Shown here piece by piece: positions 489 through 64,000 of a stretch of 64,000 nt of DNA. This DNA is from Macrocystis pyrifera (taxonomy: Eukaryota; Sar; Phaeophyceae; Laminariales; Laminariaceae), in NCBI GenBank assembly GCA_031763025.1, contig JASSKH010000031.1, positions 4,920,358 to 4,984,357 of the forward strand. Direction: 5' to 3'. A model generated the notes under the pieces. The model was given only the letters and a program-made list of their open reading frames with translations, did not search any database and was not told the DNA's origin. Position numbers and translations under genes: made by a program. Every line of letters begins with the position of its first letter. Position 1 is the first letter of the stretch.

Positions 489-3400
489 CTGATGCAACAA
501 AAACAACGCGAGGAAAACAAAACACCCATTTTAGGACTGCACTCTCGATTTAAGGAACAAATTACTTGGAATAAGAGCTCAATATATGCTCATGTGCTTA
601 AAAGGGTCAAGGAGTTCCACCAACTTCGCGTTCTAGGGAGGGGAGGGGGGGGGCGGGGGCGGGGCACCTCATGGTCATGCATGGCCGTAGCATGATAAAA
701 GACCATAGACCCCGGCATCCCTACGATGCCGGGATGGAGCACGTCGGGGAGGGAGGGGGGGGGGGGTATTCATGATCATGTGAGGGGGGGGGGGGGGGGG
801 TGTACCAATGCCATGCAGGCTGTAGGTATTAATACGTAGTCGTATGACCATTGGGGCGTACTCATTAGTTGGTTGGCTTGGTCATTTGACCATCGCGCTT
901 CTCTTTCGAGGAGGAGTACCGTTCTTACCTCTAACAGAGGTATGCACACCTCTAACATTTGAGGGCTCATCAAGTTTTTTCATATATACACCTGAAACTA
1001 TGTTGCTTATTTTGTCCCCAGTCGCTGTTTCGCTTTTCGTTGTCACCGTCTATCTCCTGGGATAGCGATCGTTTTTCTCGCTATTTTCTAGTGTACGAAA
1101 CTTCTCGATGCCACGTTCGTCTGCTTTCCTCGCTCCTCCTCCTCCTCCTCCTCCTCCTCCTCCTCCCCCAACACAATCCCGTTTCTCCTTGCATATTTCA
1201 CATCCGTTGAGGGGGAGGGGGGAAGAAAAAGTTGGCCGCGAAGTCGATTAAAAGCCGTAAGACTACCGATAAAAATTAGTCCCATACAAATTCCAAGTAG
1301 TTTGTGACGAAAAAATGTGGGCGCATCTGGACGTGAACACAAGGGACGTTATACACTGATATTTGTGCGCCAACTGTCCTTGCATTTCCGTCCAGAGCGG
1401 TTTAAAACATCACCGAAAACAAAACAAGCAATACATAAGCTACGAAGAGTGGTGTAACATAGGGCGACACACACCGACACTCGAAAAATTTACTGCATCA
1501 AGCGAGACACACCAAAGCACAGGAAGCTGTTGCACTACTGTACTTCGCAGTCATAAATACATGCCAACATGAAAGGCGCGACAGCAACAACACCAACCAA
1601 GCACGCACGAACACAACCCAATCAACTGAGTAACCACAAACAAATGTCAAGCGCAAAACAGCGCCTCTCTCCCTCCCTCTCAAGTCCGCCTCACAAGCGG
1701 TTCTTAGTAGGATGCAGCTCACCCTTGATGCGACTCGATGGACACCTCACGGCGCTTCGCGCTTGGTGCAAGCAATGTCTGCCTGGTCGGTGAAAACGCG
1801 ACGTGCTCCATCCCGGCCTTGTAGGAATGCGAGGGTCTATAGTCATACGACTGCGACCATGCATGATATGGAGCACACACACCCCCCCTCCCTCCCTCCC
1901 TCCCCCCCTCCCTGTTTACCTGCTTGGCGGGGTCTTCCTTCCCTGTTTCCGGGTCGATCACCGTGGCCCTCCGAACGCAGAGCGATACCGTCTCGCCGTC
2001 CCCGTCGTCCCCATACCTCGTAGACGCTATCGAGTATAGCCTCACCTGACATGGGCGCATCGAATTAAACGGTATGTCATAATATCATATCGTAAGTTAT
2101 CATGTCATATCGTGCGACACAATATATTTTCAGACAGATTAGTATCGTATAATATCGCATCGTTCCGTGGTCGTCGCTCTCCGTACGCAGGGCGACACCG
2201 TCTCACCATCCCCATCGTCCCGATATGTACCTCGCAGCCGCTATAACAGTCGAGTCCAGCCTCACCTGATATCTGTCGTATTGTAGTGCACGGAATCGTG
2301 TCGTGTAGCATAATATCGTATCGCATCGTGTCGTGTCGCAAAATATCATATCATATCGTATCGTATCGTATCGTGTCGTGTCGCATAGTATATCATATCA
2401 TATCGTAGCGTAGCGTATCGTATCGCACTGCTCTGACTCCAACTATTAATATTAATACCTTGGAAAAAAAAGCCGGCACATGAAACATGGTCTACAGCAG
2501 TAGTATATTATACCGAAATACAAGGGGCTATGCGGGCGGTCGTCCAGGAGGAGGAGGAAGCTGAGGCTCGATGCCAAGAAATTGATAGCGTGCGCTTCAC
2601 AATCCATGAGCATCGGAAAAGGCGGCAGAATATGCTGCCGGTTACTTGCGATTAACCGAAAAAAGCGGCGGAATGCTAAAAGGCGGTATAACTAACTCCT
2701 ATCTCAGGGAGTACGCGACGGCCGACAGCGCAGCTCCGTGGAGAAGGTGCCGTCACAGCAGCTGCTGTAGCAGTTCTGCTGTAGCTGTGCATCTCCGCAG
2801 CCAAGCAGTACAGCTCCGCTGCAGCTGCTGCCGCTGTACGATAGCGTACACACTAAAAATGCTGGCGGCCGTCATAAGTGCTGCTGGCTGTAGGTGACGT
2901 GCGATCTCTCCCTCATATATCTCGACATATATTTTTTTATGGATGGTAGTTCTCCACTAAGCCTGGGTGGCATGTGCTATCGGGGCGTTCCATCGATGTC
3001 CCAGATATAGCAGCCACCCGCGCAGGCCCCGACAATGGCAACGCCGGCCGGGTAGCTGACCCTCGCCATGGGTCGGAGGTCGGAGAGGACGTGCCGGAAA
3101 AAACCACGCAAATGCATGCACCCTGTCGAGAGACCACGGGCCGAAACACTGACAGGGCAGGGATTTTCGGAGATTCCTTCGTAGATCTCAACGTCAAGGC
3201 TTCGCGCGGGCGCTACGGCGCTGGGCAGGCGGATCCTCCGACGCCGGGCGGTGTCAGGCGTGGAGGGGACACGCCCCGGCGAAGAAACCGCGCGGAAAGA
3301 CGGTCAGAGTCGGGAGAGATCCGCCGACCAAAAACGGACCGGATCAGGTTGAGGATCATCATAGGTATATTTACATACACCAATTTGGGCGTAAATGTAA

Positions 3401-6400
3401 GGACCTTACACTCTGGGCGTAAATATAAGGACCGGTTGGTATTCATATCAACGTATAAACGTTCCTTATATTTCCGGCCAGAGCGGTACCTGGTACCCTG
3501 GTGTATACAGTACCACTCCGGCTCGCTGGCCGGAAATATAGTCCTCGCTCGGAATCTGATGTCGACATCAAACGGGGCATATATTTCAGGCCAAAAAGCG
3601 GCGCAATCTCAAACGATCAAGCCTCAGAAAGCACAGGCGATACACACTCCCAACGGTGTAAACGCCTCCTGGTACAAAGCGATTTCTCTTGGGATCCGGG
3701 ATTGTCTTCAAAACCTCAAGACAGATCACCGATGCCCACTTCCCGTATCGAAAAAAGCCTGCGCAAGCATGGGAAATTTCTCTCTCTTATTTTTTCCCCC
3801 GCCCAGACCTCCCTACTAAAAAAACTGCCGGAGTCTGGATTGCCTTCAACACCTCAGATAGACCACCAATCTCCGCTTCAACGATCTAGTTCTCTTACAG
3901 TAGAGGGCAGATGAACTGTCCTGATCTGCCTGATCTACAGTAGTACTAATACGGGGGACCATAGTAAATAGGACCAAATATTTCTAGTAAAAATATTTGA
4001 ATATATAGGTTTTTGTGTGTACCGTAGGTCCTATTTGCTATGTTCCACCGTAATAATAGCTCATGCTGCCGCGTGAGGGCCGTAATAATCCGCTCTGCGA
4101 TCTACTGTACAGTAGGTCATATTGTCCTGGGTTGGATCTTCCAGAGTACAGACCCTGCCCAGCAAATCATAACGGCAGGTTTAGGATCTACATGAGATCT
4201 ATCTGTAGATGATCTGTCCGGCGTTTGGAATTATTCTGTTGGGGGCGGGGGGGGTGGTGGGTCACGTCTCTAAACGACGTCCACGCACACTGATGATGAT
4301 CATCATGATTATAATTGATCACAACGATGGTGTTCACTAAAGTAGCCCATTTCCTTGAAATCTCGGCCGTGAGTCACAAAACAGGCTGTGTATGTACACA
4401 GAAAGAGATTCTCGAGGAAAGAAAACAATCAAGTCCACGAAAATAGGCAACAGCAGAACCAGCACCCAAGGGATCTTCACTCACGAGCTGTGGCATACCA
4501 TTCCCGTATCACTTGCAACCAAATAAATACCAGGAACATACTCATGGTATTATACGTACACTCGAAAAAAAGCATATGTCGAGCCAAAACACCCAAACCC
4601 CAAATTATCACCTTGTGAGGCTTGCCGTTCGCGTCTACGCCGGGGGGCGTGACCCCCAGGCTCTGCCCCTCCCAGTACGGCATGTTGCCGCCGTGCCGAA
4701 GCTTCACGTGAAACACCTGCGTTGCAGTAGTCGATGATACATTCGGCTTGAGCATCAATGATTGCTTAGCTGTAGGTGTTTAGATAGCGAATGTATGCAG
4801 TCGACTGCCTGCAGATTTTTTTTTTTTAACCGACGAAAAGTAAATGACCAAACAAGAACCTAGCGAGCTCATTTTTGAGGGGGCACGCTACATACGTAAG
4901 AAATGCGGAGTAAGAAGTCGTGCTCAGTGGCGGGGCGCTACTCTAAATCCTTTGTGTTGTAGCCTGTGCTCAAGGCTGCCTGAGGGTTGCTTACCACTTA
5001 TTCGAGAGAGTGGTTGATACACACTGCTGTGCACAAGACGAATATAACTACAGCATCCTGACCCTAACACTGACCGTAAGCCAATCAGAGCGACTCCAAC
5101 CTGACCCTAAGCCAATCAGACCAAACGTCGAATAAGCCACTTACTCGAGAAAATGGTTGATGCACACCGTGTACGAGACGAATAGAACTAACCCTGACCC
5201 TATAACCCTAAGCCAATCAGAGCAACACTAACCTGACCCTGAGCCAATTAGACCAACACTAACCCAACCCTAACAAGCTAATCAGGGCAACACTTACCTG
5301 ACCCTGAGAAAACAACCATACCAAATATCGCACAGGTGGTAAGCTCTACTGAGGCTTCTCAAGGGCGGTATCACACTACGGCTTCACGACTCGCTCCGAA
5401 TTATTGGTGGTGGGACCCATGCTGTATTCAGACAGCGAAATATACAAACATATAACCTGTCACCACTTTGGGCCACACAGCTTTTTCTTGTTTTTTTCGT
5501 TCTACCTCCCATTGATCATCTTCCGCCCTTCTTTTCTCTCCCCCTCCTAGTGGTAACTCAGACCCGGGGTCACATAGCAGAGGCTCGGCTCTCCTCCCCC
5601 CTCCCCCGACCACGGTTCGTGCCTTCCATTTTTTTGGGGGTCGGGAGAAGACTTCGGACCTTTACTTGCCTCGTCGACTCGCGTCGAATTGCGCTGTGTA
5701 TCCACACGACGCGCTCTCAGCAGCTGATCTCCCCTTTCATGCTTGCGAACAAACTCAAAGTCTCACCACCTTGCCACCGTGGGATTCAAACCCACGAAGG
5801 CAAATCTAGCAGCATTCGAGGGTAACCACTGGACCACCGAGGCGATTGTTGAATATATTCCCCTTTCTGACTCTGAAATTGACATGAAACGGAACCTGCA
5901 TTTCCCGGTCAGACCGGGGGGGGGGGGGGGGGGGGGGGAGCGACCGCGGTTTGACCCTCTTGGTTGACCGCCCCCACATATTTAATCGCCTATTGGCACA
6001 TTCAATAGGGCCGTGACACATTCAACAGGCTATATATAGCCACATACAACAGGCTATTGACATATCAAATAGGTTATTGACACGTCCAATAGGCTATTGA
6101 CACATCCAATAGGCAGCCCAAAAGAGTTAAGAGTGAAGGATACGGGCCGGAAACTCCCGTGGATGCTATTTGCGTACCGTGTACTACACTCAAGAGAATA
6201 ACACACCCTGCGACGAAAATCACGAGCGGAGTTTGTCCGAAGCAAGGGGGACGAAGGCAGCCCTCCCGGGTGGCTATCTCCACCGCACCTGCTCCTCTCG
6301 GGAGTCAGGTCGGGTCAACGTGCCCAAACGCCGGTGGTAACAGCAGCCTGTTCAGATGTTGCATCGTGAGCTATGGGCTAAATTGGCACACGACACGAAA

Positions 6401-8894
6401 TTGAAACGTGGAAGTGTGGTGACCTTTAGCTTTATTTTTACCAATCCGCCGGAGGATAAAAAGCAAAAGAAAAAGCAAAAAAAAAAAAAGCAAAGGTAGA
6501 ACCTATTTTTCTGCGGCTGCCAACTTGCCAATCCGCCGGAGGATAAAAAGAAAAAGAAAAAGAAAAAAGAAAAAGCAAAGGTAGAACCTATTTTTCTGCG
6601 GCTGCCAACTTGAAGTACTCTAAAGTATCTCGCAAAAAACAATCTTGAGAAGTAACGGACGCTCAACCACGGCCCATTGCAGGTGTTGTTCGTAAAATAT
6701 TATACGAAAACAAAAAAAAAAAAATGGGCGGGGTTGACGACGTTGGGTAGTCCCTCAGTTCAGGAACCCGCCATCCAGAAACATTTGCCTTATAAGGCGG
6801 AAATAAGTCCTTCGTACCACACGTCATGGGTCTACAGGGCATGGAAACATCTCTACTGCGACGAATAATCCGAGCCGTTTTTTTCTCCAGAGCAAGGGAA
6901 TGGGGGGCGGGGGGGGCAACTTGTAACCCAACCACAAATGATGGCTACGTCTTTCTATACGTATGTAGACGCATCGCTCGGCGCTTGCGCACTTGCACCG
7001 TCCCGGTGTCGAGAGGGGAAAAAAAAAAAGAAGCTTCGAAATTCGAGCGAGGGCGTGTGTACTACACGTTATCTACTACGGGGGACCATAGTAAATAGGA
7101 CCAAATATTGTCAGTAAAAACAGGTAAATACATAGGTTTTTATGTATACCGTAGGTCCTATTAACTATGGACCCCCGTAATACCCCAAAGGGTAAAGAGG
7201 ATGATACACTGTTTTCTGACCACAGGCAGGATTTTCGGGGAAAAATTAGTTACAGCATATAAACGTAAGAATATCACCAGCATCACGGCATTTCGACGCG
7301 AGTCGACGGGGGAAGAAACAAAAACTGAGCTTTTCTCGCGATAAAACTGAAAAGCAGGCATGCACCGACCATATCGTACGCAGTGGAGAGGGGGGGGGGG
7401 GGGGGGGGGGGGGAGAAAGAGCGCCCGCCCGCTATGTGGCCCCCGGATCTGAGTCACGAAAGGGAGGGACCAGGAGAAGTAGTGAGGCGGAGAAGCTGAT
7501 AGATGGGATGGAGAAAAAAAAAACAACGAACAAACCAGGGTGTGCGCGGCTAAAATAGAGAAGACGACTCTATACCCACTCCTAAAAATTTCATACGTAC
7601 TATACTACTAGTAATAGTCAAAAACAAATCAGTGGCGTGGGGGGATTTTCTGAACGGATTTGCGAAAAAAAAAAGTTGTCCGGTTCTTATTTTTATTTTT
7701 TAGTCTTACTTGGTTTTAGAGAAAAAAAAACTTGTCTGGTGGGTCTCGAAAACGGCTATCAAGAGTGGGGTGGTGTCTTTTTTTTTTCTTCATCTTTTTC
7801 GTGCACCCTTTTGAACAACCCAACTGCTGTAAGGTTCGGGCGTGTCTCGCCGCAATCTTACCTCGCCCGAGGCCCCAGGCTGGACCAGCTTGTGGACGCT
7901 CTCCACGGTGCCTATGTAAGGCTCCTTGGACTTGTACGTGTGCATCGGGAGTTCCGACATGTCCCTGAATGGTTCAGGAAGTTGTGGAGTTGTGGAGGGA
8001 GAGGAGGGGGGGGGGGGGGGGTGGGGGGGGGGGGTCGAGGAGGGGGGGGGGTACTCATGCGTCGATTGCCTTCGTCATTTGAACATTGACCACGCATCCC
8101 TTTTGAGACGGAGGGGGCAGGGATTCGTTAAGAAAGGAGGGGGTGGGAGGGAGGGAGGGAGGGAGGGCGGGAGGTGTGTACTAGGATGCAGCTCGCCTTT
8201 CATGCGAGCCGAGCACCTTGCGGCGCTTCGCGCTTGGAGCAGAAAAAGTCTAGCTGGTCGGAGAAAACCCGGCCTGCTCCGTCCCATCATTGTAGGGATG
8301 CGAGGGTGTACGGTCTTACGACTACGGCCATGCACGACATTACTACACCCCATGCACGACATGTGGGGAAATATATAATGAGCGCCCAAATATTGGAGGT
8401 GTCTCCTTTGAAGCAGGAACGGTACTCCGTCTCGAAAGGAATGCGTGGTCAACGGTAAAGTGAGTACCTGGTAAGGCAAGCAACAAATGAGTACACTCCC
8501 CCTTCCTCCCTCCCCGCCGCCTCGCCTCCCCCTAACCCCTCACCAGTAGGGGTCCCGTTCGAGCGACCGCGTTACCGCTCCGCCGATGAATGTTTCGGAC
8601 GGAGTTCCAGCCCCAACAAGCGGCTTGTGCGGCTGTGTTTTGGGGGCATCCTTGACGGGAGAGGAAGCAGCAGCGGCTACCGCCGCTGATGGTGCTGCTG
8701 GTGCTGCTGGTGCTGCTGGTGCTGTTGCTGGACTTCCAGCCGAAGAAGGGGCTGCAGCTGCACGCGCCGCTTGGACCTGGTCCATCACCTCGCGGAGCTT
8801 GGAAACCTGGTAGGGATTCGTTGGGGTCGATTCGGAGGTTGTAAGGGGGGAGGGGAGGGGGGGGGGGTATAGGGGCTAGGGGGGGGGGGGGGGT

Positions 8895-18300: not shown

Positions 18301-20046
18301 TTTTTTTTTGTTGCAACACTTCGCTGTCGGTATTTGCAAATATCGCCGACGGTATTTGCAACATCACTGTCGGCATTTACAATTTTTCGTCGCCCCGAGT
18401 TCAGAAAACAAATGATGACGTCAACTAGTAATTCATCTGGGGTCGTCATGCGCCGTGAGCTCGGTCTCTGCCTCCTCCCAAGCCCCTGCCGCTGTCGGTA
18501 TATGCAAAGTATTGCTGTCGGTATTTGGAATGTCGCGGGCGGTATTCGCAATGCCGCTGTCGGTATGATATGTACAACGTCGTTGTCGGTATCTTCAGTA
18601 TCGCTGATAGTATTTGCAAGTTTTGCTGTCGGTATTGGGGATGTCGTTGTTGGTATATGCAATGCCGGTGTCGGTACGTGCAACGTCGATGTCGGTATCT
18701 GCAATATCGCTGTCGGTATTTGGAAGTTTTGCTGTCGGTATTTGGAGCGTCGTTGTTGGTATTTGCAACGCCGCTGTCGGTATGTGCAACATCGTTGTCG
18801 GTGTTGCAATTATCGCTGTCGGTAGTTGCAAGCCGCTGTCGGTATGTCCAACGTCGTTGTCAGTATGTCGGTATTTGCAAGTTTTGCTGTCGGTATTTGG
18901 AATGTCGTTGTTGGTATTTTGAAACGCTGCTGTCGGTAAGCGCAACGTCGTTGTCGCTATTTGCAATTATCGCTGTCGGTGTGGCTCACCGGCTCGTAAG
19001 CGATGACGATTTTGTCCATCTCCTCTGCCGATACGCCGGCCAGGTCCTTGCCCAGCTGGACCGCGCAGATCTGCAATTTGCGCGGGTATTTATAGGCGGA
19101 AAGTCACGACGACAAAAAAAAAACGCCCCATGAGACGTACATGTAGGAACACGAACGTAGCAGCAGCGTCAGCGAAGATAACGGGAATGGCGTGGGGCGG
19201 AGTGAAGTAGATGGGGGGCGAGGGATGGGCGCGGGGGGGGGGCGAAAGGTATGACGACCCTGCCATCACAAAAAAGTAGACATTTTTTTTTTCACCAGTG
19301 GAACCAATTTTGCGCTGGTTAATGTCACATAAAACAAACAACACCGGTACTATGTGCTACCCTTTCGCTCGTGCGACTATCGCTGCTTCTCCTCCTACCC
19401 CCTCGACCCCTTCCCTCCAAACCTCCGCTCCCCCAACCACAACAATTGAGACCCCTCCGGTTCCCCTGTCCCTTTCTCAAACATACCTCCTTGTTAAGTC
19501 CCGCTTCGTACTCCTCCTTGCTCTCTCCGATGCAGAGGATGGGCTTCAGCCCCGCGTCCAGCACCTTGCGCACCTTTTAATCGTCGAAAAACAACGAATT
19601 ACGTTTGTCGTGCGTGCACCCGTTTAAAAAAAAAAACGCAGCCACAATAAAAAAAAATTAAAAAGTTGACCTATCGACAACGTGGGGAGCGAAACTCATG
19701 ACGTCACACACAGTAAAGCTCTGGCCGTACATGCAAAAGGACCGTTCGGGTATAAATGTGAAAGCCAAGCGGTCCTTGCATTTTCGGGCAGAGTTGAGTT
19801 GGCGGTTTCAACGCTGCCGTTCTCGAACAGTGGCCGCAGAGGATGTATCTACGTGCCCCCCCCCCCTCCCCCCCTCAGGAAGGGGATAAGATTAGCAGAA
19901 AGTTTCCATGTAATATATGGAAACAACGTAATGAGCGCCCGAATGTTGGAGGTGTCTCTACCAGGAGTTAGGAACGGTGCTCCGTCTCGAAAGAGATGCG
20001 TGGTCAATGGTCAAATGACTAGGGCAAGCAACAAAAGAGTACGCCC

Positions 20047-20105
<59 letters not shown>

Positions 20106-23100
20106 CACCCCCCCCTCCCCAATCGCCTACCCCAACTAAAACTCTGCATATCATCATAAATACATGAACAAGGGGCTTCGCCGGCGGCCTGAATGGTCGC
20201 CGGTCGCCGCGTCGGGTGATGCCCACGATGATGGCAGCGTATCTGCAAAGCGGAGGTCAGACTTAATGCCGAGACTTACGAGGATTTTTATACACGCTAC
20301 CCAAAACGTACAGAGAATGAGCGTGACTGATGTCCACATTCTCGTGTGGTACGGTATTAGGTCAAATATTCGACACGCATGAATGAATACAGCGTGCTTC
20401 GCCGGCGGCCTGGATGGCCACGTTGTTACTGCGGGGGACCATAGTAAATAGGACCAAATATTGTTAGCAAAATTAGGTAAATATATAGGTTTTTGTGTGT
20501 ACCGTAGGTCATATTTACTATGGTTCCCCCTAATAGCAGCGTTGTGACGTAGGATTGAGGTCCGACTCGGTGCCAAGAGATCAGAGTGTCCTAAACACCG
20601 CCCACGGAGAAATCGAGCGACTGCCAGCTGCACAGATACGCCCCAGGTGTGGGGAATAGTCGGCTTTTTGGGGGGGGGGGGGAGACATAAAAACATGCAG
20701 GAGTTGAAACGAGCTATGGCACTACACGGGGAGCACTAAGATTTCAGAGAGCATCAGCCCACCGTTTCGATCACTTCATCCATTAGATTTTCCGCAATGT
20801 ACGGAAGATGCGAGGGTCTATGGACGTACGACTGCGGCCATGCATAACATGAGTACACCCCCCCCCCCCCCCCGCCCGCCCGCCCGCCATATACCCCCCC
20901 CGGCTCGCCCGCTCCCTCCTACCACCCATCCAAACAAACGATCACTCCGCAAAAATCACACCTTTCGGTTGACGGTTTCATCGCTGTCCCCGAACACCGA
21001 TCGTCGCTCGGAGTGCCCGCAGAGCACGTACGTGCAGCCCACGGACGCCAGCATCGCCGTCGAGACGGCCCCGGTGAACGCCCCCTGGTTCTCGATGTAC
21101 AGGTTCTGCGCGCCCACACTCACGTGGTTGCCAGCCACGCTCCCCACCTTAACCCAAAAAAAACGAGATCGGACGTAAATGTATAGTTGCACAAGAGTAG
21201 TGTTTTAGACCAGGTTTCCTGAAAACATTTATATGCGTCACGTGGCAAAACAAAAAATACGGCAAACGGTGAAGCAAGATTTTTTCGCAGCGAAAAAGTT
21301 CAAAAAAAAAAAAAACTCATTAAGAGCTGGGGGGAAAATTGAGAAGGTTTCAAATTTGTGAAAAAAAGACAAAAAAAACTCAAGTTGCAAATATTTGGAA
21401 AAACGGGAAGTTGCAAAACAAGCTGAAAACAAACGTGTAATTTTTTTCAAATTTTTGAGAAACAACCTCGCGTTTTTTGCAAAAAATTGAAGTTACGCTC
21501 TAACAACTGTGGTGCGGTGGGCGAGGACGGCAAAACATACACACGCAGTACACACATTCGAGTCGTGAAAGCACACACACGCGCGCACACACACACGCAC
21601 ACCAAATATATGACACACCCGCACCTACATATTATTTGGACACACAATTTTCACCCGCCTGCCCCCCCTACGCCCGATCCAGCCATCGCTTCGAAACCGG
21701 GCCTCTGCAGGTTATAAACTATGGGTAACCGAAGACGTCAACCTTTTTAGGATTACAGTCCCGCCTGGGAAACAAACTACGGAGAATTTGAGTGGTTTGC
21801 CATCATAACGGGACCGCAGTTCTAAAAGGGTTGCGAGAACGCCTCGCAAACCCAAGGGAAACCCCGCGCATCTGAATTGTTAATCAGGGCAGCCGGTTTC
21901 GTAGCGACAGTCCCAAGGCATGAAAAAAACAACAACAACAACAAAAAAACGCCGAAAAACTCACCCCAAGACATGAAAACGCCGGGCAGCATCAAGGGAA
22001 ACCTCGCATTCGAATTGTTAGTCGGGGCTGCCGCCTTCGTGTTTTTAGTGTCTCAACACTTCATCCTTCCCCTGCTGCAACTATTATCCCAGTCTTTATT
22101 CCAAAGTACTACAAAAAAAAAGTGGGTCAAACTTATGACGGGGGGTCAAGTCGAGCAAAAAATAAAGGAGAAAAAAAAGCCGAGAAACTCTTAAGCAAAC
22201 CCCATTTCGATTAGATGTCTGTATTTATAGTTACTTGCCTGCTCCCCCACGGGCACGAGGAAAGGGTGGGGGGGGATGACGGCCACCTCTACGTTTTCCG
22301 CGCCGGTGGTCAGCTCCGCCACCTGTTTCCGGGAAAAGCGAAAGGTGACAGATGTCAACATCGGAAAAGAGAGGTCTCGTTAGGAACATGCAGTACTAAA
22401 GTAGTAGTGCTAAGCATGCACTTAAGAACATGGCGCTACGAACGAGCACTAGGAAGACGCATGCGCTAATAGAGCGAGTTGGAAAACATGCTTACGAACA
22501 ATACCGGGCACGTGTACGTGGGTAGTTTCCTTTTGCAGCTCCAGCGGCTACAGGTCAAGAATATTAACGTAACCCTACTGTTGTTGTACTGAAGTCCCGT
22601 TTTCGGGACAGACCACGCAGATTCTAGACCAGTATTACGGGGGACGGACCATATTAAATAGGACCTGCGGTACACACAAAATCCTATATATTTTCCTAAT
22701 ATTGCTAACAAATGTTTGGTCCTATTTACTATGGTCCCCCGTAACTAGTTTGTCCCCGAGAAAGGGACAGCAGTCCTAAAAAGGTTAAAATCGTGGGTCA
22801 AGTACATACCTGGTATATGTTTCGGTGTTATCTCCTAACGACGAGGGTGACTACTTGAAAATGCGCTAGGATCATGCGTTCGTATCAATGTTGATACTTT
22901 CTGTAGGTTTACTATTAAAACCGTGTGTACTCGAATTAACGTACCACTCTGTCTTTGAAAATAAGGATCGTTTGTATTGAATTTTTAATATAGGAATGAT
23001 CCCTACGGTTCGGGACAGAGCGGTACGGCAAAGAGCCTTTCCCAGAACGGAAAGGTTCGCCATTTTTACCGAACAAGTTTCCGGAATTTTCTGGCGGGAG

Positions 23101-38839: not shown

Positions 38840-40532
38840 CCGACTTATTTTTTTCCCTTCAAATACGAATACAACCAGAATCGAAGCGACAAAAGCCTGG
38901 CCGTGTTCGACATCAACTACGTTCAGCAGTGGCAGAGCGGTGTCGGCGCGAGCTCAGCCCAAGGGCCGGTAGGGGCCCGGAGGGCAGCAGCAGCAGCAGC
39001 TGCGGCGGCTGCTCTCGCCAATGCTAGCGCAACAGGCTCTTCCTCGGCTGTTTCAGCGGCGATGGCTGCGGCGGCGGCGGCGGCGGCGGCGGCTGGGGGG
39101 GGGCGGGGGATCGGGGGTAGTAGGGTTAGCAGCGGCAGGCGGAGCTGCGGGGGGGGGGGGGGGGGGGGGGGGGGGGAGTCGGCACCGCGGCGCCCGGTGT
39201 TGGCACCATGAGCAGCATGATCAGCGGCATGACTGGGCTAAACTTGGGTGGTCCTAGCGGCAGCGGAAGCGGCATGTCCGGGACGGGGGTGGGGGTGGCG
39301 GCAGCAGGAGGGGTAGGAGGGGGGGGGGGGGTTCTAGTGACGATGAAGACGAGGGCATCGTCAACGGTGTGGGGAGTGGTGGTGGCGGCGTTGGTGGTGG
39401 CGTTAGCGGGAGTTGTGGTGGCGGCAGTGGCGGTGGTGGCGCGGGTTCAAGAATGCCTGGGGGTGGGGGCGGGGGGTTTCCGCTCGGCGGTGCGGCCTTG
39501 TCCGGGGCGGGAGGCGGGGGGTCGATCAGGGAAGGGGGTGGCCAGGTCTGGCCGATCAGCAAGGTAAGTTTAGGGTGTGTCCATAGTTTGTGTCCGCGTG
39601 TCCACCATGTGTGTCTGCGCGTCCATGAGCTATGTGTGTCCATGGTTTTGTGCCTGTGTGCTTATTATTTGCGTCTTATGTGTCCATGATTTATGCTTGT
39701 GTGTCCATGATTGGTGCCTGTGTGTCCGTAATTTTTGTCTGCATGCGACTGGTGTCTTACCGTCTGTCGGTGTATCTGTCTGTCTGTCTGTCTGTCTATT
39801 CTGTCTCGTCCGTCTGTATATACATCTGTCTTGTCCGCTCGTCTGTCTGCCTGCCTGTCCGTCCGTCCGTCCGTCCGTCCATCCGTCGGTCGCATTACCT
39901 CACAACCATTTGCGTGCTTCTTCCTTGCGACGTGCACCACGCCTGCACCACTTTACACGAAAACCAACCTTGCCCGGGCGAAAAAGAGCACCTACTCTTG
40001 GGACTCCCCTAATGCGGCCTACGAAAACGAGCAGACGGATTACGGCATGAACAACGACGGCTACGTCTCTCTGGCATGGGTACCAGGGCACGACTCGCTG
40101 CTGCTGGCCGGCACGGCATCGAAATTCCTCAAGATCGTTGACATTCGCGTTGTGTGAGTGCTGGCTGTTGTGATGTGGGGGGGGGGGCGGGGGGGGGGGG
40201 GGAAGGTCGGGGTAGTGGGGGTGGTGTTGGTGAAACATGGCAGGGTGTGGGGTGCGGAAGGTGGCGGCGGCGGTAACGGTGGTGATAGTATTACGGGGGA
40301 CCATTGTTGATAGGACTTACGGTACAGACAAAACAAAAACCTGGTACATATTTTCCCCTATTTTTACTGACAATATTTGGTCCTGTTTACTATGGTCCCC
40401 CGTAATTGTAGCAGTTATTGATGTGTTAGTATTGTACTAGATGTAGTAGTGTTAGTAGTAGTGTTAGTAGTAGTAGTAGCAGTAGTAGTAGTAGTAGTAG
40501 CAGTAGTAGTAGTAGTAGTAGAAGTAGTAGTA

Positions 40533-40590
<58 letters not shown>

Positions 40591-40738
40591 TAGTAGTAGT
40601 AGTTGTAGTAGTAGTACTAGTAGTACTAGTAGTACTAGTAGTACTAGTAGTACTAGTAGTAGTAGCAGTAGTAGCAGCAGTAGCAGTAATAGTAGTAGCA
40701 GTAGTAGTAGTAGTAGCAGTAGTAGTAGTAGTAGTAAC

Positions 40739-40836
<98 letters not shown>

Positions 40837-40954
40837 CAGTAGCAGTAGCAGTAGCAGTAGTAGCAGTAGCAGTAGCAGTAGCAGTAGCAGTAGCAGTAGC
40901 AGTAGCAGTAGCAGTAGCAGTAGCAGTAGCAGTAGCAGTAGCAGTAGCAGTAGC

Positions 40955-41016
<62 letters not shown>

Positions 41017-44000
41017 GTAGTAGTAGGAGTAGTACTAGTAGTAGTAGTAGTAGTAGGAGTAGTAGGAGTAGTACTAGTAGTAGTAGTAGTAGTAGAGAGG
41101 CCGCTTGTACATGATCTAGCAGAAGCACTACTCTAGTGATGAACTTGCGTAGTACGTGTTGGCTGTTAACATACACCAGGTGCTTGGGAAGTATTCAAAG
41201 TTGGTTGCGTGCGTTCTCATGTTTTCACGGGTCGTTTAGTCCTTTGCGTTTTTGCGTTTTTTTTTCTGACTGGCGCGTGTTTTTTACGCCTCGAAGCGTG
41301 TTTCGTACTCGTTTTTGTATTCGTAGAATACAGTACGCATACTTCTTCACCCAGTCGATAGGGTCTTTGCTGCGAAATGTTGGTTTGACCCCAAATTGGT
41401 CGAGCTTTCTTGTGGTGTGTTTACTGTCCCAGGTATATGATCGACCCCAAAACATGCAACATTTTCAAGAGTAAACCCAACTCGAAGCAGAATTAGGGCA
41501 AAAATGGCATTTTGGCCACTTTTTTGCCACATCCTTACAACGAGGATCCTAACGTTTTCGTGGGTTGTGGGGTCATTTTCATGCAGGAAACAGACCACAC
41601 AAGAAACCCAACCGATTCGGTGTCAACGAAATTCTTGGCGAACACAAACCCTTTCAGGGCCGCGGTCCCGTTTTCGGGGGACCATAGTAAATAGGACCTA
41701 CGGTACACACAAAAACCTATATATTTACCTATTTTTACTAACAATATTTGGTCCTATTTACTATGGCCCCCCGTAATAGAAGAAGGGTATACCACTCTGA
41801 ACGAGAATACAAGGTACGTTTAAAAATCATATAAGAGTCCAAATGGTTCTTATAATCCGGGTCAGAGCCATATTCATAGCCGTGAATTGAACCACAAGGC
41901 ATGCCTTACTCACAGCTAAGCCATACCGCCCGCCCCCCCGCCCCCCCCCCGCATCAATTCATTCGACGCTGTCACCCACTGCCTTTACAAGCGGCCCGTG
42001 TTATTACGGGGGACCATAGTAAATAGGACCAAATATTGTTACTAAAAATAGGTAAATATATAGGTTTTTATGTATACCATAGGTCCTATTAACTATGGAC
42101 CCCCGTAGTAATAGTAGGATGCAGCTCACCCTTCTTTGCTTCTCGGCGAACGCCCCAGGGCGCTTCGCAGCTCGCTGGCTGCAAGCAACGTCTTGCCCGG
42201 TCGGTGGAAAACCCCGACGTTCTCCGTCCCGGCATTGTAGGGATGCGAGGTGTCTATGGTCATACGACTACGGCCATGCATGACATGCGTGCCACCCCCC
42301 CCCGCACCCCCTCACCCCCTCCCCGCGCGCGCGGGGGGCAGACAACGCCTGCCTGGTCGGTGACAACCCGACGTGCGCCGTCCCGGCAATGTAAGGGGCG
42401 AGAGGTGTCTATGGTCATACGACTACGGCCACGAATGACATGAGTACCACCCCCCCCCCCCCCCTTCTCGCGTGCGCGTGGTGCAAGCAATGGTCGCCTG
42501 GTCGGTGAAAACCCGGCGTGCTCCGTCCCGGCATTGTAGGGATGCGAGGTGTCTATGGTCGTACGACTACGGCCATGCAATGCGTGACATGAGTACCCCC
42601 CTCCCCCCCCCCGTCCGCATGCTCCGTCTCGAAAGGGATGCGTGGTCAATGGTCAAATGACTAAGGCAAGCAACAAATGAGTACGCCCCCCCCCTCCCCC
42701 CCCCCGTCCGCCGCGCGCCCCGCGTCTCAGCCCCGCTACCCATAGGAGCATCGAGGCGCACAAAGGACCCGTCAGCGGCATCGTGGTGAGGGCCATAGAC
42801 CCGAGAGTGGTGGCGACATGGTCCGAGGCTCCAGGGGTGAGAGGTTGAGCCTTGCCGGGCGTCGTAGTCTGCTGCATCATGTGCAGATACTGCCGTGGGG
42901 TACGAGTACTCATTTTTTTACCACCCCCCGCGACAAGCCTATACGAAACTTGGGTCTTCCTTTGCCTCTAGTAAGATGGTCTTATCTTAAAAAAAAAAAA
43001 AAAAAAAAAAAAATGAGAGAAAAAAGAAAAAGTTATTCCATTCTGAAATTCCGAAAGTAGTTTTTTTTTTTTTTTTTTTTCTCGTGACAAATAGCCGATT
43101 TAGCGAGAGGGCTTGTCTGTCTCCCGAGAAAGTCTCGAAACTGATGGTCTTTTGAAGTGGGTGCCTGGCTGTCGATACACTACTACTGCACCAAATTGAC
43201 ACACGACACGAAATTGGAACGTGGAAGTGTGTGGTGAGCTTAAGCTTTATTTTTACCAATCCGCCGGAGGATGAAAAAAAAAAAAAAAAAAAACTACTCC
43301 ACCGATTTACCAGGTATGTTGCTTAGTTGTTGTAAGTATAGTACATACAAGGCGTTCCTACAGTACGGAGTGGATCATAGTGAGGGCGACGCAAGAAGTA
43401 CGCGTTACCTCGACAGCAGCAGAGCACCAACATGTTATACAGCAGCAGCAGCAACAACAGCAGCAACAGCAACAGCTGCAGCAGCAACTGCACTGCTGCA
43501 TACTTCACCCCAGACGGAGGAGGAGGGCGCGGACAAAGCGTTTATAGACAAAGGAGGAAACGAAACTGTGAAAGTTAACTATGTACGCGCAAACTCTCGA
43601 TTTTTTTTGCGCATTTTTTTTTTTTTCATCGTGCCGCGGGGGCGCCTCAAACAAAAAAAGTCGGTGACACGCCAGGACACGCCGCATAATTTGTTTTTTT
43701 TAGTTACGAGTACACAGGAGGGGGGGCTCTAAAGCCAAGTGAAAACAAGTACCAGCTATCCAAAAACATGTAGTTTTCTTATTTCGCCCTGTGATCATAA
43801 CACTTCGGTCGGGTTTCCGTTCTTGATCTCTGGGGGTGTGTGTGCCGCTTTCTCTTTTTCGGGGGCGCTCGTCGCATGCTGGTGAAATATTTACGTACCT
43901 CTTACGTTATTACGGGGGTCCATAGTTAACGGGACCAAATTTTCTTAGTAAAAATAGGTAAATATATGGGTTTTTATGTACACCATAGGTCCTGTTAACT

Positions 44001-47000: not shown

Positions 47001-47173
47001 CCCCTACAATGCCGGGATGAAGCATGTCGGGTTTCCACCGACCAGGCCGACAGCTATGACGGGGGGGGGGGGCATATTAACAGCGATCGGGACCCATGAT
47101 ACGCACAGAAACCTAAATATTCCTGTATTTTTACGTACCTCCTGTAAAGAATATTTGGTCCCGATTACAATAT

Positions 47174-47213
<40 letters not shown>

Positions 47214-48778
47214 TAACGTTTGCTGTTGCCGAAAGCTGCAGTACGTTCCCCATCTCTTTTGATGCTCGTTTGGCGCATGTGGCATGGGTATCCCAGCATG
47301 AGCAAGGTCGTGTGTGTGTGTGTTTGTGTGTGTTTTTTTGCGCGGCTGTTCACTGGTTGGGTCAAACTTCGCGGGTCAGGTCGGTTCGGGTCGAGTCGGG
47401 TAAAAGGGCGACCCGACCCGATCCACGAGAGTTTTAAAACCTCCTGACCCGACCCGACACGACCCGAACCACGAGAGTTCGAAGAGTTCCCGGCCGGACC
47501 CGAGGTTAGGGCTGGGGGTGGGGTCATGGCCCGTAGCGCTGCTTTTCTTCCCCTTATTATATATCATGGTACTGGTTTTCCAAGAAGAAGCGCAGGCCTC
47601 TTCACGTCGGGGGTCATGGGTGTTGTGTATAAACCCGCGGCAATTTTTTCTTGTCGTACAAACGTGGCCTTTTGTCCGGGCAGGTGGCCTGGTGTCCCAG
47701 CCGCAACGATGTCGTGGCGACCGTGCACTCGAACGATAGGCGGAAGGTCTGCCTGTGGGATCTTCAAGGGGGCAGCAACATGCGGAAGGTGAGAGGATGT
47801 TGGTGTTGGTGTTGGTGTTACAGTAGGTTGGTGTTGGTGATGGCGGTGTTAGTGTTGTTGTTGGTGGTGAGGGGGGGGGGGGGGGGAGTGTACTCATTAT
47901 CGTGCGTGGCCGTAGTCATATGACCATAGACCCTCGCATCCCTACAATGCCGGGACGGAGGAGCACGTCGGGTTTTCACCGACCAGGCAGACATTGCGTG
48001 CACCAAGCGCGAAGCGCCGTGAGGTGTTGGGCGAGTCGCATGAAGGGTGAGCTGCATCCTGCTGGGGGGGGGGGGGGGGGGGTACTCACTATCATGCATG
48101 GCCGCAGTCGTATAACCACAGACCCTCGCATCCCTGCAATGCCGGGACGGAGCATGTCGGGTTCTCATTTTTTGCTTGCGTTAGTCATTTATTGACCATC
48201 GGCCACGCATCCCTTTCGAGACGGACCACCGTTCCTGCTAATATAGACAGGTGGGGGGGGGGGGGTACTCGATAGGAGAGATGTACTCGATCTCATGCAT
48301 GTCCGTAGTCGTATGACCATAGACCCTCGCATCCCTACAATGCCGGGACGGAGCATGTCGGGTTTTCACCGACCAGGCAGACATTGCTTGCACCAAGCGC
48401 GAAGCGCCGTGAGGTGTCGGGCGAGTCGCATGAAGGGTGAGCTGCATCCTACTAAGAACCGCTTGTAAGGCAGACTTGCATATGGATGACAGCTTCAATG
48501 AGTTAGTTTAATTTCCGGTGTAGCCACTTCCAGATACAGCAATGGGAGTACTATGTAACTGCCTCTTGGGTGCCGTACCTTGAACACTACGTGATACGAT
48601 CAATTCCCTTGAGCAGAGTAAAGGTTCTTTACCTCGCACAAATGATCTAACTAGACGACCAGCTGTGGGCGACCGCCAAAAAAAAAAAAAAAAAAAAAAA
48701 ACGGTACCCTGGATGTCTAGCTCACGTAGTGAGCGGCATGTTTTACAGTGTCGTTGCCAACCGACACCAACCCAAAGG

Positions 48779-48811
<33 letters not shown>

Positions 48812-51549
48812 ATCGTGGTCGTGGTGGTGTTGGTGGTGTTGGTGATCGGTCGGCGTGGTTGGCCGTGCCCTCTCTCGCCTGTCTGGTACAATATTTATGG
48901 GTTGGGTTGGCGTCGGTTGGCAACGACACTGTAAAACATGCCGGCAACTGCGTGAGCTAGACAGCCAGGGTACCGTTTGTTTGTTTGTTTGTTTGTTTTG
49001 GAGGTCGGTCACAGCTGGCGATCGAGTTGGATGATTTGTGCGGGGTGGAGAACCTATACTCAGCACGAGGAGAATGATCGTATCACGTACCAGGTAGTGT
49101 TTACGGTATGTCACCCACGAGGCAAGTTACATGGTAACCCCATTGATGCCTCTGGAAGTGAGTACACCGGAAAATAAACTAACTCGTTGAAGCTGTCGTC
49201 CATACGCAAGTCCACCTCACGAGGGGTTCTTTGTACGATGCAGCTCACCCTTCATCCGACTCGCCCAACACCTCACGTTTCGCTTCGCGTTCGGTGCAAG
49301 CCATATCTGCCTGGTTGGTGAAAACCCGACGTGCTCCGTCCCGGCATTGTAGAGATGCGAGGGTCTATGGTCATACGGCTACGGCCATGCATGATATCGA
49401 GTACACGCCCCCTATGCATGATGATGAGTGCACCCCCCCCGCCCCCCCCCCCCCCCTATACTATATACCTGGTATATGTATATAGGTTGGGTTGGCGTCG
49501 GTTGGCGACGATGCTGTAAAACACGCCTCTCATTGCGTGAGCTAGACAACCAGGGTACCGTTTTTTTGTTTTGTTTTTTTGGCGGTTACCACGGCTGGCG
49601 ATCAAGTTAGATCATTTTTTTTGGTGCGGGGAGAACCTTTACTCCGCACAAGGGGGATGATCGCATCAACGTAGAGTGTATCTGGTGAGGCACCCACGAG
49701 GCAGTTACATATTGAACCGATTGCTGTCTCCGGAAGTGGCCACACCAGAAATTAAATCAGTTCATTGATGCTGTCATCCATATGCAAGAAAATCCGCCTC
49801 TCAAGCGGTTCTTAGTAGGTTGCAGCTCACCCTTCATGCGACTGGCCCAACACTTCACGGCGCTTCGCGCTTGGTGCAAGCAATGTCTGCCTGGTCGGTG
49901 AAAACCCGACGCGCTCCGTCCCGGCATTGTAGGGATGCGAGAGTCTATGGTCATACGACTACGGCCATGCATGATAATGAGTACACCCCTCCTCCCCCCC
50001 TCCCCCTGCACCCCCAAAACCGTCATGGTTGTGTCGATAATTAAAGGAAACCTTCCCCCCTTTTCCGCGCACAAACACACTCCCCACGACCACCGGCCCT
50101 GCCCCCTCCCTCCCCTCAATCAAAACTGGACGAAAAAAACGTCGCAACTGTCTTGATATTTATAGGAACCCCCCCCCCCCCCCCCCGCGCGCTTGTTCCG
50201 CCCACCAACAAGCAGACTCCCTACGACCATCGGTTCACGAAGCATGCGATTTCCACCATCAGCTGGCAGCCCCGAGGCCTCAGCCCCCGGCTACCTTCGG
50301 TCATATCAGCAGCGGTAGCGGCAGCAGCAGCAGCGACAACAACAGCAGCTGCAGCGGCAGCAACGGCGGCAGCAGCAGCGGCTTCAACCTCTGCGCCCTT
50401 GGGGGCGACGGTGGGGGTCGGTGGGAGTGGGGCAGGGGGAGGAGTGGGGGTGGACCAAGGCTCGTTGGCCGCACTAGCGGCGGCGTCGACAGCAGGTGTG
50501 TGGTAAAGGGGGTTGGGGACTACAGCGGGGGGGGGGGGGGCGTACTCATTTGTTGCTTGCCTTAGTCGTTTGACCATTGACCACGCATCCCTTTCGAGAC
50601 GGAGCTATAGGGGGGGGGGGGTGTACTCATTATCATGCATGGCCGTAGTCGTATGACCATAGACCCTCGCATCATTACAATGCCGGGACGGAGCACGTCG
50701 GGTTTTCACCGACCAGGTAGACATTGCTTGCACCAAGCGCGAAGCGAAACGTGAGGTGTAATGTAAGGGGGTTTCGAACGAGAATCGAATCCGATTTTAC
50801 GGTTCTATGTGCGATACCGATACCGATAAACCAGAAACCAGAAAAAAAATGTACCGCTCTTGTCCCGATATATAGGTAACGTCTCGATACTGAATGTGAA
50901 TACAAACGTTTTTTTACATTTCGGGACATAGTGCTAGATCGACGCATGCTCCGGTAGAGGTGTGACCCGTTTTGTTTCTGGAGCTGCTCACATTGCCTCA
51001 AGGAGCTCTATACCTCACCGAACCAACCCGATTTTGGAAGAAAAGGAGCTCTATACCTCACCGAACAAAACTGATTTTTGGAGGAAAACAATTCCGTGTC
51101 CTGTTTACATATAGTGTACACAGTACAACGACAAAAATCGCAACGCAAGAACGAAATTTCGACGATTGTTTGGGTTAAGGAGCTCTGTCATTCAGAAAAC
51201 GTTTCTGCCAAAAAAAGTGCTGCGTTACGAATCATACCTCTACGCGTCTACCGATAAAACTAAAAGCACTATTACGGGGGTCCATAGTTAGCGGGACCAA
51301 ATTTTGTTAGTAAAAATAGGTAAATATATAGGTTTTTATGTATACCATAGGTCCTATTAACTATGTACCCCCGTAATACTACTGTTACGTGGTACGCGGT
51401 CGATACCATTTCGGAAATCTGATACGGTACATCGAAGCTTTCGTTCAGCGCCTTGGGTTCGAGACGAGACCTACAGCTAAGCAGGAGAAACTACGTATTG
51501 GTTCGTAGTACACGGAAGTTTTCGTAGAGTTATCTGCATGAAAGACGCG

Positions 51550-57600: not shown

Positions 57601-60165
57601 CGCACGCAGCGGAAAGCCGCCGGACATTGCGGAGGTGTGTGTTGGTGGTGGTGGTGGTGGGTGGTGGTGGTGGCGGCGGTGTTGGTGTTGGTGTTGGTTG
57701 GTGTGTTTTTGTTGTTGCTGTTGTTGCTCTTGTCTCTTCTTTCGTCCTGTCTGGTCGTGCGCTGTGTTGTCGTGTCGTGCGTCGTGTTGTCTCGTCTCGT
57801 CTCGCCGTCTTGCTTCGCCTTGCCTTGCCTTGTCTTGTCGTAGCCAGGCTATGCACTTCGAACAGCAGCAACAACAAACATCCGACAACTGGTGGACCAC
57901 GTTTTTGTTTTTCGTACATAGCCTGCTCAAACTACAGCAGGTACAACCATGTTGAGCTCAGGCCTGCAACTGTATAGAGTGCCCCTACATAAGCATGCCC
58001 GCCCCACTACATAGCACTAACCAACCATGGCTCAAATGACCTTCTCATCCTTCTGGGTTTTCATACAGGTGATGAAGTGGCGTGCTCAAGCCGGGTACCG
58101 AACTGACGCCGTCCACAACAGGACCAACATCTTCGCGCGCGAGCTGCCTTCAGAGGTGACGTGTCCACAAGCGAAAGGGTATTTTCCAAGCATTTCGCGT
58201 GTTGTGCGGTCCTGCCGGCGCCGTCCCGTGCCGCACGCGGTCGACCAAACCATGTCTTGGTGCGCTACTATCTAGTCAAAGCGAGGTCTTCAAGCCACAG
58301 AATACTTGGTACGACCCAAGCGCCTAATATTACGGGGGACCATAGCAAAAGGGACCAACTATTGTTAGTAAAAATAGGGAATTACATATCGATTTTTTTT
58401 TGTGTGTGTATCGTAGGTCCTGTTAGCTATGGTCCCCCCCGTAAACGAACTAAATCTCTACAACAACAAACAACATTTTTTTTTTTTTTTTTCTTACGTT
58501 TTTTCGAAACGGTCCCCATCTCTTTTTAAATCTTCCACACCTCGGACACGTTACCAGATAGATTATGATGATCTATCTGATCTGTCTAGTTCCTCAACTG
58601 CCGTCGCGAGAGCTTTCGTGCAGGGTCTGTCTTGTGGGGAAGATCCAATCCAGAGGAAGACATATGTTTAGAGCAGATCATGCGGAATTGTACGGGCCCC
58701 ACCCGGCAAACATGAGCTAGGTCATGCAGATCATACAGATCGGGAGCAGATGATCTATCTGCCTTGAAAGAACTTGATCATAAGTGGGAATGATCTGTAG
58801 ATGATCTGTACGATCTGTAGAGGATCTGTCTGTCTGAGGTGTGCAGTCTTCTCTGCGTTTTCGCTTCTCCTCGAGGGGGGACGGGGGATAGCGGTGGGCG
58901 TGAGGGCGCGGTAGGGGGGGGAGGGGCGAAGGGGAAGGGGGGGGGGTGCTCGATAAGAGAGATGTACTCGATCTCACACGTGGCCGTAGTCGTATGACCG
59001 GAGACCCTCGCACCCGTACGATGCCGGGACGGAGGAGCACGTCGGGTTTTCACCGACCAGGCAGACATTGCTTGCACCAAGCGCGAAGCGCCGTGAGGTG
59101 TCCGGCGAGTTGCATGAAGGGTGAGCTGCATCCTGTTCACGGAGGACCATAGTAAATAGAACCTATGGTACACACAAAAAACTATACTATTACCTATTTT
59201 TACGAACAGAATTTGGTCCTATTTACTATGCCCCCCCGTAATGCTAAGAAGCGCTTGTCGGGGGGGGGGGGGGTCGGGGCGGTGTTTTTATTATTGGTGG
59301 ATATCGAGCGAGAATGGAGTAGGTCGAGTTTCCGTGTCCCACCTTTTGTGCACTAAATGAATTACGACGCATGTTTAGTACGGGGGACCATAGTTAGTAG
59401 GACCTACGGTGCACACAAAAACCTATACATTTACCTATTTTTACTAACAATATTTGGTCCTATTAACTGTGGACCCCCGTAGTAGTATTTCGGGGGACCA
59501 TAGTAAGTAGGACCTACGGTACACACAAACATCTTTATATTTCCCTGTTTTTACTAGCAATATTTGGTCCTTGTTGCTATGGTCTCCCGTGATGTTAATA
59601 CCTGGTAGTATGTATACAACCGTGGTCCGTCTACATAGTGCCGGTACATATGCACCAGTCAGCAATACCGGCATTGGTATGGCGTCAACCGGCACTAATC
59701 CCTCCGCACACTCCCACAATTGTATTGGTCAGTCCCATACCAGGTAGGAGCCAAGCGAGTTCACAGGCACTATTAAGGGAGGCCGACACTACTGTGCTAC
59801 TCAACCGGCTCTAAGTGGAGGGACCGTTGCCGACTGTAGTGTATTTTACTCAACCGACCGTGCTATTTTTCTGGATTTTGTTTTTCCCCTCTTGTTGTTT
59901 CGTTTTGTTTCGTTTTGTTTTGTTTTGTTTCGTTTTGTTTTGTTTGTTCGTTCGTCCGTTCTTTCGTTTGTTTTTTTCATCCTTTTTTTTTGTGTTGCGG
60001 TCGGTACGGTTTTCGATGATATCCTGTTTGTGTGGAAACGGTTAACACGCAGGACATCAGATCGCGATCTACTGTACTGTAGATGACCTCCTGCAGGTTT
60101 TTCATGGAGGGGCGTGGACAGTCACCGGGTGTAGCTCGCAGTTGGGGCGATCATCACATGTGAAT

Positions 60166-62459: not shown

Positions 62460-62955
62460 GTGAGAGCTGGTTTTTCAATGGGATGTTGTGGAGGTGGTTG
62501 AGGGGGGGGGACGGGGGCGGGAGGGGGGGGGGGGCGGGGGCGGGGGGCGAGGGGGGGGGGGGGTACTCGATGGGGGGGGGGTACACCTGTGTTGCGCTGC
62601 CCACAAAACACAAAAAAAAGTCCCGAAAATGTAGACAATGGAAGCACGTCTGCCGCCATGTTTTTGACTGAGACTTTTCGTTTTTCTGCTCCAGCTCCGA
62701 ACGTTTCCATCGAGCCAAAAATGTTGGCAGGGCAGACATGAGCTTCTTGGTGCACTCACTCCCATGAGCGTCCCAAAGCGACAGCGCTTTTAGTGTCCTC
62801 CTTCGGGGGGGACCTCGTCGCTAAAAGTTGGAAAATGTGGTTCCAGGCGCTTGAATTTCCAGTTTCTCGTACTGTAGCCGAGCATTTATTTTTTTATGGT
62901 GCAGAACGACCAGGAGTTCTGCCAAGCCTTCCTGTTCCCAACCCTATAACAGACT

Positions 62956-63494: not shown

Positions 63495-63597
63495 CCTATA
63501 TTATATACCTGGTATATATATTGGTTGGGTTGGCGTCAATTGGCGACGACGCTGTAAAACACGCCTCTCACTACGTGAGCTAGACAGCCAGGGTACC

Positions 63598-63632
<35 letters not shown>

Positions 63633-64000
63633 GGGGTCACCACGGCTGGCGGGCGAGTTAGATCATTTTTGTGCGGGGATAACCTTTGCTCCGCACAAGG
63701 GGGATGATCGTATCACGTAGTGTGTGTACGTGGTAAGGCACCCACGAGGCAGTTACGTAGTTAGCCCATTGCTGTCTCTGGAAGTTGCCACACCAGAAAA
63801 TAAATCAATTCGTTGACGCTGTCATACATATGCGAGAAAAGCCGCCTCAAAAGCGGTTCGCAGTAGGATGCAGCTCACCCTTCATGCGACTCGCCCGACA
63901 CCTCACGTTTCGCGCCGCGTTTGGTGCAAGCAACGTATGTCTGGTCGGTGAAAACACGACGTGCTCCGTCCCGGCATGGTAGGGATGCGAGGGTCTATGG
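63495..64000 (+). repeat. Long module element, cut by window end
   Basis: TATATACCTGGTATATATA, GGGTTGGCGTCAATTGGC, a T run, then module 1 to GGGTCTATGG at the last base. Confidence 0.87.

Follow-up and report, generated by a model that had tools for sequence, protein, structure and literature searches.

In a stretch of 64,000 nt from Macrocystis pyrifera (hereafter the window; G000:C213:4920358-4984357), two kinds of repeat, A and B, share one right end, GAGTAC followed by a run of C. This raises the question of what the C-run is: a tail that the elements bring along, or a site in which they land. The shared end itself, reported in a preliminary description of this DNA, is real and strong. 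A C-run (a G-run on the other strand) lies within a few bases of a GAGTAC-like end at all 13 places named earlier; at 49435 the motif is GAGTGC instead of GAGTAC, and at 20035 AAAGAGTAC is followed by GCCCT and then C55. Pattern counts in the organism's own 537-Mb genome (537,376,219 bases, 223 contigs) gave 8,311 occurrences of GAGTACCCCCCCC (4149 + 4162) versus 77 (38 + 39) of the reversed pattern. In the window, profile searches detected 16 copies of A and 7 of B. One of these 23 is cut by the window end; among the 22 testable copies, 17 have a C-run of at least 7 within 40 nt downstream and one has a G-run, versus a random-flank null of 0.025. As a control family, we used a ∼113-nt MITE with ends TATTACGGGGG / CCCCCGTAATA, which has 29 loci in the window (for example 42002-42114, 43908-44020 and 51270-51382); the 28 local copies tested showed one C-run and one G-run among 56 flanks. 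The copies and their runs are as follows.

668..1019, minus strand: B, very short A-like ends (by eye) separated by C17 and C12, and a truncated A
1681..1908, plus strand: A copy (model 335-536), then a C/T-rich tract
8006..8113, minus strand: B copy (model 104-166), then C10, C12 and C16
8173..8494, plus strand: A copy then B copy, with no C-run of at least 7 in between
19882..20042, plus strand: B copy (model 1-166 of 166; profile E-value 4e-50), a LINE-unit 3' end, ending in GAGTAC
20048..20102, plus strand: C55 to the right of this B copy, with C11 and C7 on the left at 19856-19874
20794..20873, plus strand: 5'-truncated A copy (61 nt of the model, by profile), then C16
42111..42705, plus strand: head-to-tail array A-C9-A-C15-A-C10-B-C10, four copies with differing 5' starts
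47002..47052, minus strand: A fragment without 3' end, C12 on the left and a G-run on the right, the sole copy with a right-hand G-run
47871..48265, minus strand: array of C13, B fused to a truncated A, C19, A and C16 (minus-strand reading)
48283..48809, minus strand: long A copy (model 32-536), with C30 directly adjoining on the left (48780-48809)
48882..49404, plus strand: long A copy (model 13-536), facing the copy at 48283..48809 head to head
49442..49984, plus strand: C15, then directly a full-length A copy (model 1-536)
50527..50760, minus strand: A-C12-B-C14 (minus-strand reading)
58937..59136, minus strand: A copy (model 365-536), the end of which is extended (ATCGAGTACATCTCTC..ATCGAGCAC) and precedes C10; on its 5' side it adjoins a MITE
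62551..62581, minus strand: C10, ATCGAGTAC, C13, a minimal end in C-rich DNA adjoining another repeat
63496..64000, plus strand: full-length A copy cut by the window end, with CCCCCCTCC on its left

Other repeats lie among these copies. Two A copies (42111 and 59136) abut the MITE on their 5' side, and at 47061-47212 the G/C ends of a MITE-like stretch seem to have lengthened to G12 and C38, a hint of C-run expansion by slippage. A tandem repeat with a 90-nt period occupies 45427-45966 in five overlapping copies, and a long AGT-type trinucleotide repeat 40326-41110. Another repeat is present in pieces (52048-52595, 62610-62909 and 60873-61117); read on the minus strand, the one at 62610-62909 continues into C10-ATCGAGTAC-C13, whereas its relative at 52048-52353 does not.

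The C-runs themselves are far more numerous than the elements. In the window, 64 of 76 C-runs of at least 8 have no GAGTAC, and genome-wide GAGTA directly precedes 8,311 of 265,288 such runs, so that most long C-runs lack the motif. The preliminary description had counted this outcome against a common end; it proved to be the case.

A and B had been taken for two unrelated modules, which was wrong, as their last ∼65–75 nt are homologous. When the two 3' consensus sequences were aligned without GAGTAC, the score was 42, whereas the best of 5000 shuffles reached 25, and the A and B profiles detect each other's copies (best about 3e-6 and 2e-6). The idea of different bodies therefore stands for the 5' parts and fails for the 3' ends, and descent from one ancestral repeat, raised earlier as a counter-argument, applies to the 3' end only. 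A is a ∼536-nt non-autonomous repeat with a 3' end related to that of B. To this end we could fit two hairpins and a tentative closing stem: in an alignment of 18 of the 23 window copies (A3; A668, A8173, A20794, A47052 and A63496 left out), 90.3% of cells are paired, versus 34–46% with partners slid by 1–3 columns. Because between 20 and 226 of 500 column shuffles match or exceed the observed value, depending on which of the five measures is taken, covariation is not clearly above shuffles and lends the pairing weak support only. The consensus fold kept the two hairpins, and the closing stem was absent. A three-way junction closed by GUGCUC/GAGUAC came out of single-sequence folding only (z-scores: A −0.72, B −2.0); it is absent from the consensus folds, no compensatory change was found in it, and we mention that such a junction might form at the A/B 3' end as a suggestion only.

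What could mobilise both modules became apparent in forty stretches retrieved from the genome around GAGTAC-C8 sites: B proved to be where a ∼3.9-kb LINE ends on its 3' side, and this LINE has domains of an APE-type endonuclease and of a reverse transcriptase. In 5 of the 40 stretches (L026, L031, L040, L041 and L042), a longer unit terminates in the B end. In the first four the unit is ∼3.87 kb, with 89.7–98.5% identity to L040; a sixth stretch, L039, holds a portion of it, cut by the end of the retrieved DNA. Upstream of the B ends lie matches to Exo_endo_phos (1.1e-10 in L040, 5.5e-11 in L031) and RVT_1 (1.1e-14 in L040, 1.4e-14 in L026, 1.6e-31 in L042), and the best PDB relatives include L1 ORF2 (2.7e-17) and R2 (3.8e-17). 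The B unit thus has three features of an APE-type LINE: an APE-type endonuclease domain, a reverse transcriptase of non-LTR type, and a constant 3' end with 5' truncation. As L040/L041 (98%) and L026/L031 (96%) are near-duplicates, these are about three independent LINE copies, and the reading frames of those examined are interrupted. L042 also holds inverted copies of the LINE 3' kilobase (2409-3420 and 5004-6018, 92% identical), and the minus strand of L033 carries pieces of a DNA transposase (2623-3300 and 4320-5267; DDE_Tnp_4 / Plant_tran).

A resembles the LINE tails as well. Its alignment scores with the tails of L040 (32) and L042 (42) exceed all 2000 shuffles, and the score of 21 with those of L026 and L031 was reached by 8 of 2000; the full-length A profile (nhmmer) had no match on the L040 LINE tail. 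With B the end of a LINE that has domains of both enzymes and A sharing a related 3' end, the earlier idea of a common mobilising machinery is supported. In the window itself, no reverse transcriptase was detected among the 113 of 240 filtered ORFs scanned against Pfam, where the sole match was to one proline-rich family; 10 window ORFs scanned beforehand gave no match. For a 35-residue exon in the window, all 26 PDB matches with E values up to 1 are to triosephosphate isomerase (best 0.0032; Pfam TIM below cut-off at E 0.029); the exon is preceded by a leader that we take to be plastid-like.

The ends of the copies agree with a LINE mechanism. A 3' ends fall at model positions 529–536 in 14 of 16 window copies, the exceptions being one copy cut by the window end and one fragment, and B 3' ends at 165–166 of 166 in 7 of 7. 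In contrast to these constant 3' ends, the 5' starts in the window vary from model position 1 to 476 in A and from 1 to 104 in B, as target-primed reverse transcription predicts. To quantify insertion lengths, we listed 45 A and 15 non-LINE B copies from window and genome, leaving out four LINE-length B copies and A47052, entering the window-cut copy 63496 as full length and the sets L023/L025 and L017/L020/L027 once each. Certain lengths recur in this list: 63–65 nt in 7 of 15 B copies, and 38–41 nt (6/45), 172–180 nt (5/45) and 505–536 nt (8/45) in A. Insertions of 23–65 nt are common, with 15 of the 45 A copies and 8 of the 15 B copies being no longer than 65 nt. The B breakpoint at 63–65 nt falls one base into the tentative closing stem, and that of A at 38–41 nt immediately precedes the inner hairpin. 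As both are on the 5' side of hairpins, these breakpoints may reflect RNA that was trimmed before being copied, as opposed to synthesis that stopped early. Genome-wide, C6 joined directly to the B breakpoint gave 993 matches with up to 2 mismatches, 70 of them exact, whereas G6 gave 169 and no exact one, most of those listed resembling what the element itself carries upstream. For the A breakpoint, the C6 junction gave 836 matches, 97 exact (the G6 comparison was made for the B breakpoint). The C6 junctions of both kinds listed are on many large contigs.

These junctions place C-runs on the left of copies, and the left flank is also the fair test of whether the run was there before the element, because a right C-run had been part of the selection of genome sites. 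Among 59 genome sites, 7 were not placed, and 7 of the remaining 52 were dropped for similar left flanks, leaving 45. The dropped copies include L029 (minus strand, 4814), for which a pure-C flank was the sole ground; to the left of this position on the minus strand, a C-run of ∼70 separates a MITE from a 39-nt A insertion. Of the 45 copies, 25 have a left C-run of at least 7 and none a left G-run (null 0.029); four further near-duplicates (L020, L025, L027 and L041) were kept, and without them the count is 24 of 41. The window copies agree, with 11 of 23 having a left C-run and none a left G-run. In the other 20 of the 45 the left flank has no run of at least 7, and at the full-length LINE copies L040/L041 and L026 a left C-run is absent.

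No convincing target duplication was found in the 12 clusters examined; two shared words, with null fractions of 0.015 and 0.03, were put down to chance among 12 clusters. We propose that a duplication would not be visible because it would lie inside the homopolymer. A single query for an empty site returned only the occupied locus.

Overall, this suggests a model, which we consider likely, in which a single LINE-type machinery inserted both A and B as retroposons, splitting a C-run that served as their target. The LINE protein would recognise the 3' end of the RNA, where two hairpins are followed by GAGUAC, its endonuclease would nick the G-strand of a C-homopolymer, and reverse transcription would be primed from the nicked G-run. 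The C-tract beside GAGTAC would then be mainly the split target site, to which the RNA might add a few Cs, and a target duplication, if any, would fall within the homopolymer. C-runs to the right of old copies could in turn become targets for new copies of the same orientation, so that head-to-tail arrays would build up, and run length would then drift by slippage. In the window, 10 of 12 neighbouring pairs within 200 nt have the same orientation; of the 9 pairs with a run of at least 7 in the gap, 8 do. The one opposite pair is head to head at 48775/48882, with the run on the left of both copies.

The strongest competitor is the reading offered by the preliminary description, a C-tail in place of an A-tail or a sequence-specific addition of C. 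Here the RNA would carry a C-tail that is encoded, slipped or enzymatically added, and left C-runs would mark insertion into the tails of earlier copies. This would fit right C-runs being commoner in the window (17/22) than left ones (11/23), C enrichment being stronger on the right, where it also extends further (from 0.82 down to 0.37 across 100 nt, versus 0.45 to 0.30 across 40 nt on the left), a base between GAGTAC and the run that is often A for module A and G for module B, and the LINE copies with a right but no left C-run. However, a loose motif search detected a GAGTAC-like end within the left 40 nt of 6 of the 45 genome copies and of only 3 of the 25 with a left C-run, so most left C-runs do not follow another element's end, and element-free C-runs predominate. 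As the unselected left side also has a same-strand C-run and element-free runs far outnumber occupied ones, the tail is the weaker reading and, as a full account, improbable. What may survive of it is a short RNA C-tail, which could possibly contribute by pairing with the G-strand. We thus regard the C-run as mainly a landing site, with good though not compelling confidence.

Alternatively, the genome might grow long C-runs from short ones, with short terminal C seeds lengthened by replication slippage after insertion. C-runs of at least 8 are indeed abundant (265,288), and tail length varies among near-identical duplicated loci (C46, C42 and C11; in another set C7, C11, C15 and C10). Yet the MITEs of the window, which have a terminal CCCCC, rarely abut long runs (the one C-run and one G-run in 56 flanks), and slippage leaves unexplained the left C-runs joined to recurrent internal breakpoints, which makes this origin very unlikely. 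A satellite or tandem duplication carrying the C-run, rather than retroposition, could account for the head-to-tail arrays, in which the order A-C-B occurs twice, and for several sampled loci being near-identical duplicates, but is hardly credible because array members differ in 5' start and type, dispersed copies sit in unrelated flanks, C6-breakpoint junctions occur on many large contigs and a LINE with the same end exists.

Taking C-runs as the landing site, we can extend the model tentatively, with somewhat less than even confidence, to a (dC)n/(dG)n-homing LINE primed from the G-strand, the machinery of which might also insert trimmed, structure-protected RNA ends of 23–65 nt, copied in full, and so leave on the order of a thousand micro-insertions of each kind embedded in C-runs. 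If true, C-homopolymers would be an abundant, strand-oriented and self-renewing LINE landing site, and targeting of C-runs would explain both the nested head-to-tail arrays and the unseen target duplications. A LINE could then copy RNA pieces of ∼25–65 nt into the genome, sizes that repeat annotation usually misses, and the recurrent breakpoints at hairpin bases would be a record of RNA decay products.

How do A, B and their LINE compare with known elements? Exact A, B and MITE patterns had no match in viral contigs, and a distant search of a phage collection with one A copy had none either. One viral contig (L001) had a single loose-pattern match, where the 401 bases around it bear no likeness to A or B by eye, and an 18-mer occurs at three places in prokaryote genomes (L002-L004), which we took as chance. 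Some LINEs insert into simple repeats, and the element described here appears to do likewise, although its apparent target is a C homopolymer and is common to non-autonomous riders and very short insertions. A has the LINE-related 3' end of a SINE, but no tRNA-, 5S- or 7SL-derived head was detected: no tRNA head was found in the window and no Rfam match at gathering score, searches that could miss divergent heads, and five weak sub-gathering Rfam matches in two A-bearing stretches were taken as chance. We therefore did not file A as a SINE. SINEs that share the 3' end of a LINE, have a hairpin near that end and are mobilised by the LINE in trans are established (PMC3747384). Such pairs resemble A and B in their different bodies, single LINE-derived 3' end, hairpin near it and, probably, mobilisation in trans, but their 3' repeats are A, T or short units (such as ATT, CA, CAA, TTG), with no (C)n in the available parts of that table, whereas here the repeat is C (PMC3747384). 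The commonest family in Ectocarpus is the ∼600-bp non-autonomous RTEX-N1_Ec32, which shares its 3' end with the autonomous RTE-X LINEs RTEX-1/RTEX-2_Ec32 and has a 5' region of unknown origin (PMC12477816). Compared by description only, it is like A in being an abundant non-autonomous repeat with a 3' end in common with a LINE; unlike A and B, it is given no terminal C-run in the available part of that account (PMC12477816). The Zepp LINE of green algae forms nested clusters, as do copies of the present LINE, but at about one cluster per chromosome (PMC3446292) and with a poly-A tail (PMC3747384, Table 3), whereas the copies described here are dispersed and the run is C. Our searches of one open-access library listed no C-run-targeted LINE, and we do not claim its absence from print. 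Against this background, the new part is the probable use of C-runs as a landing site together with the abundance of 23–65-nt insertions.
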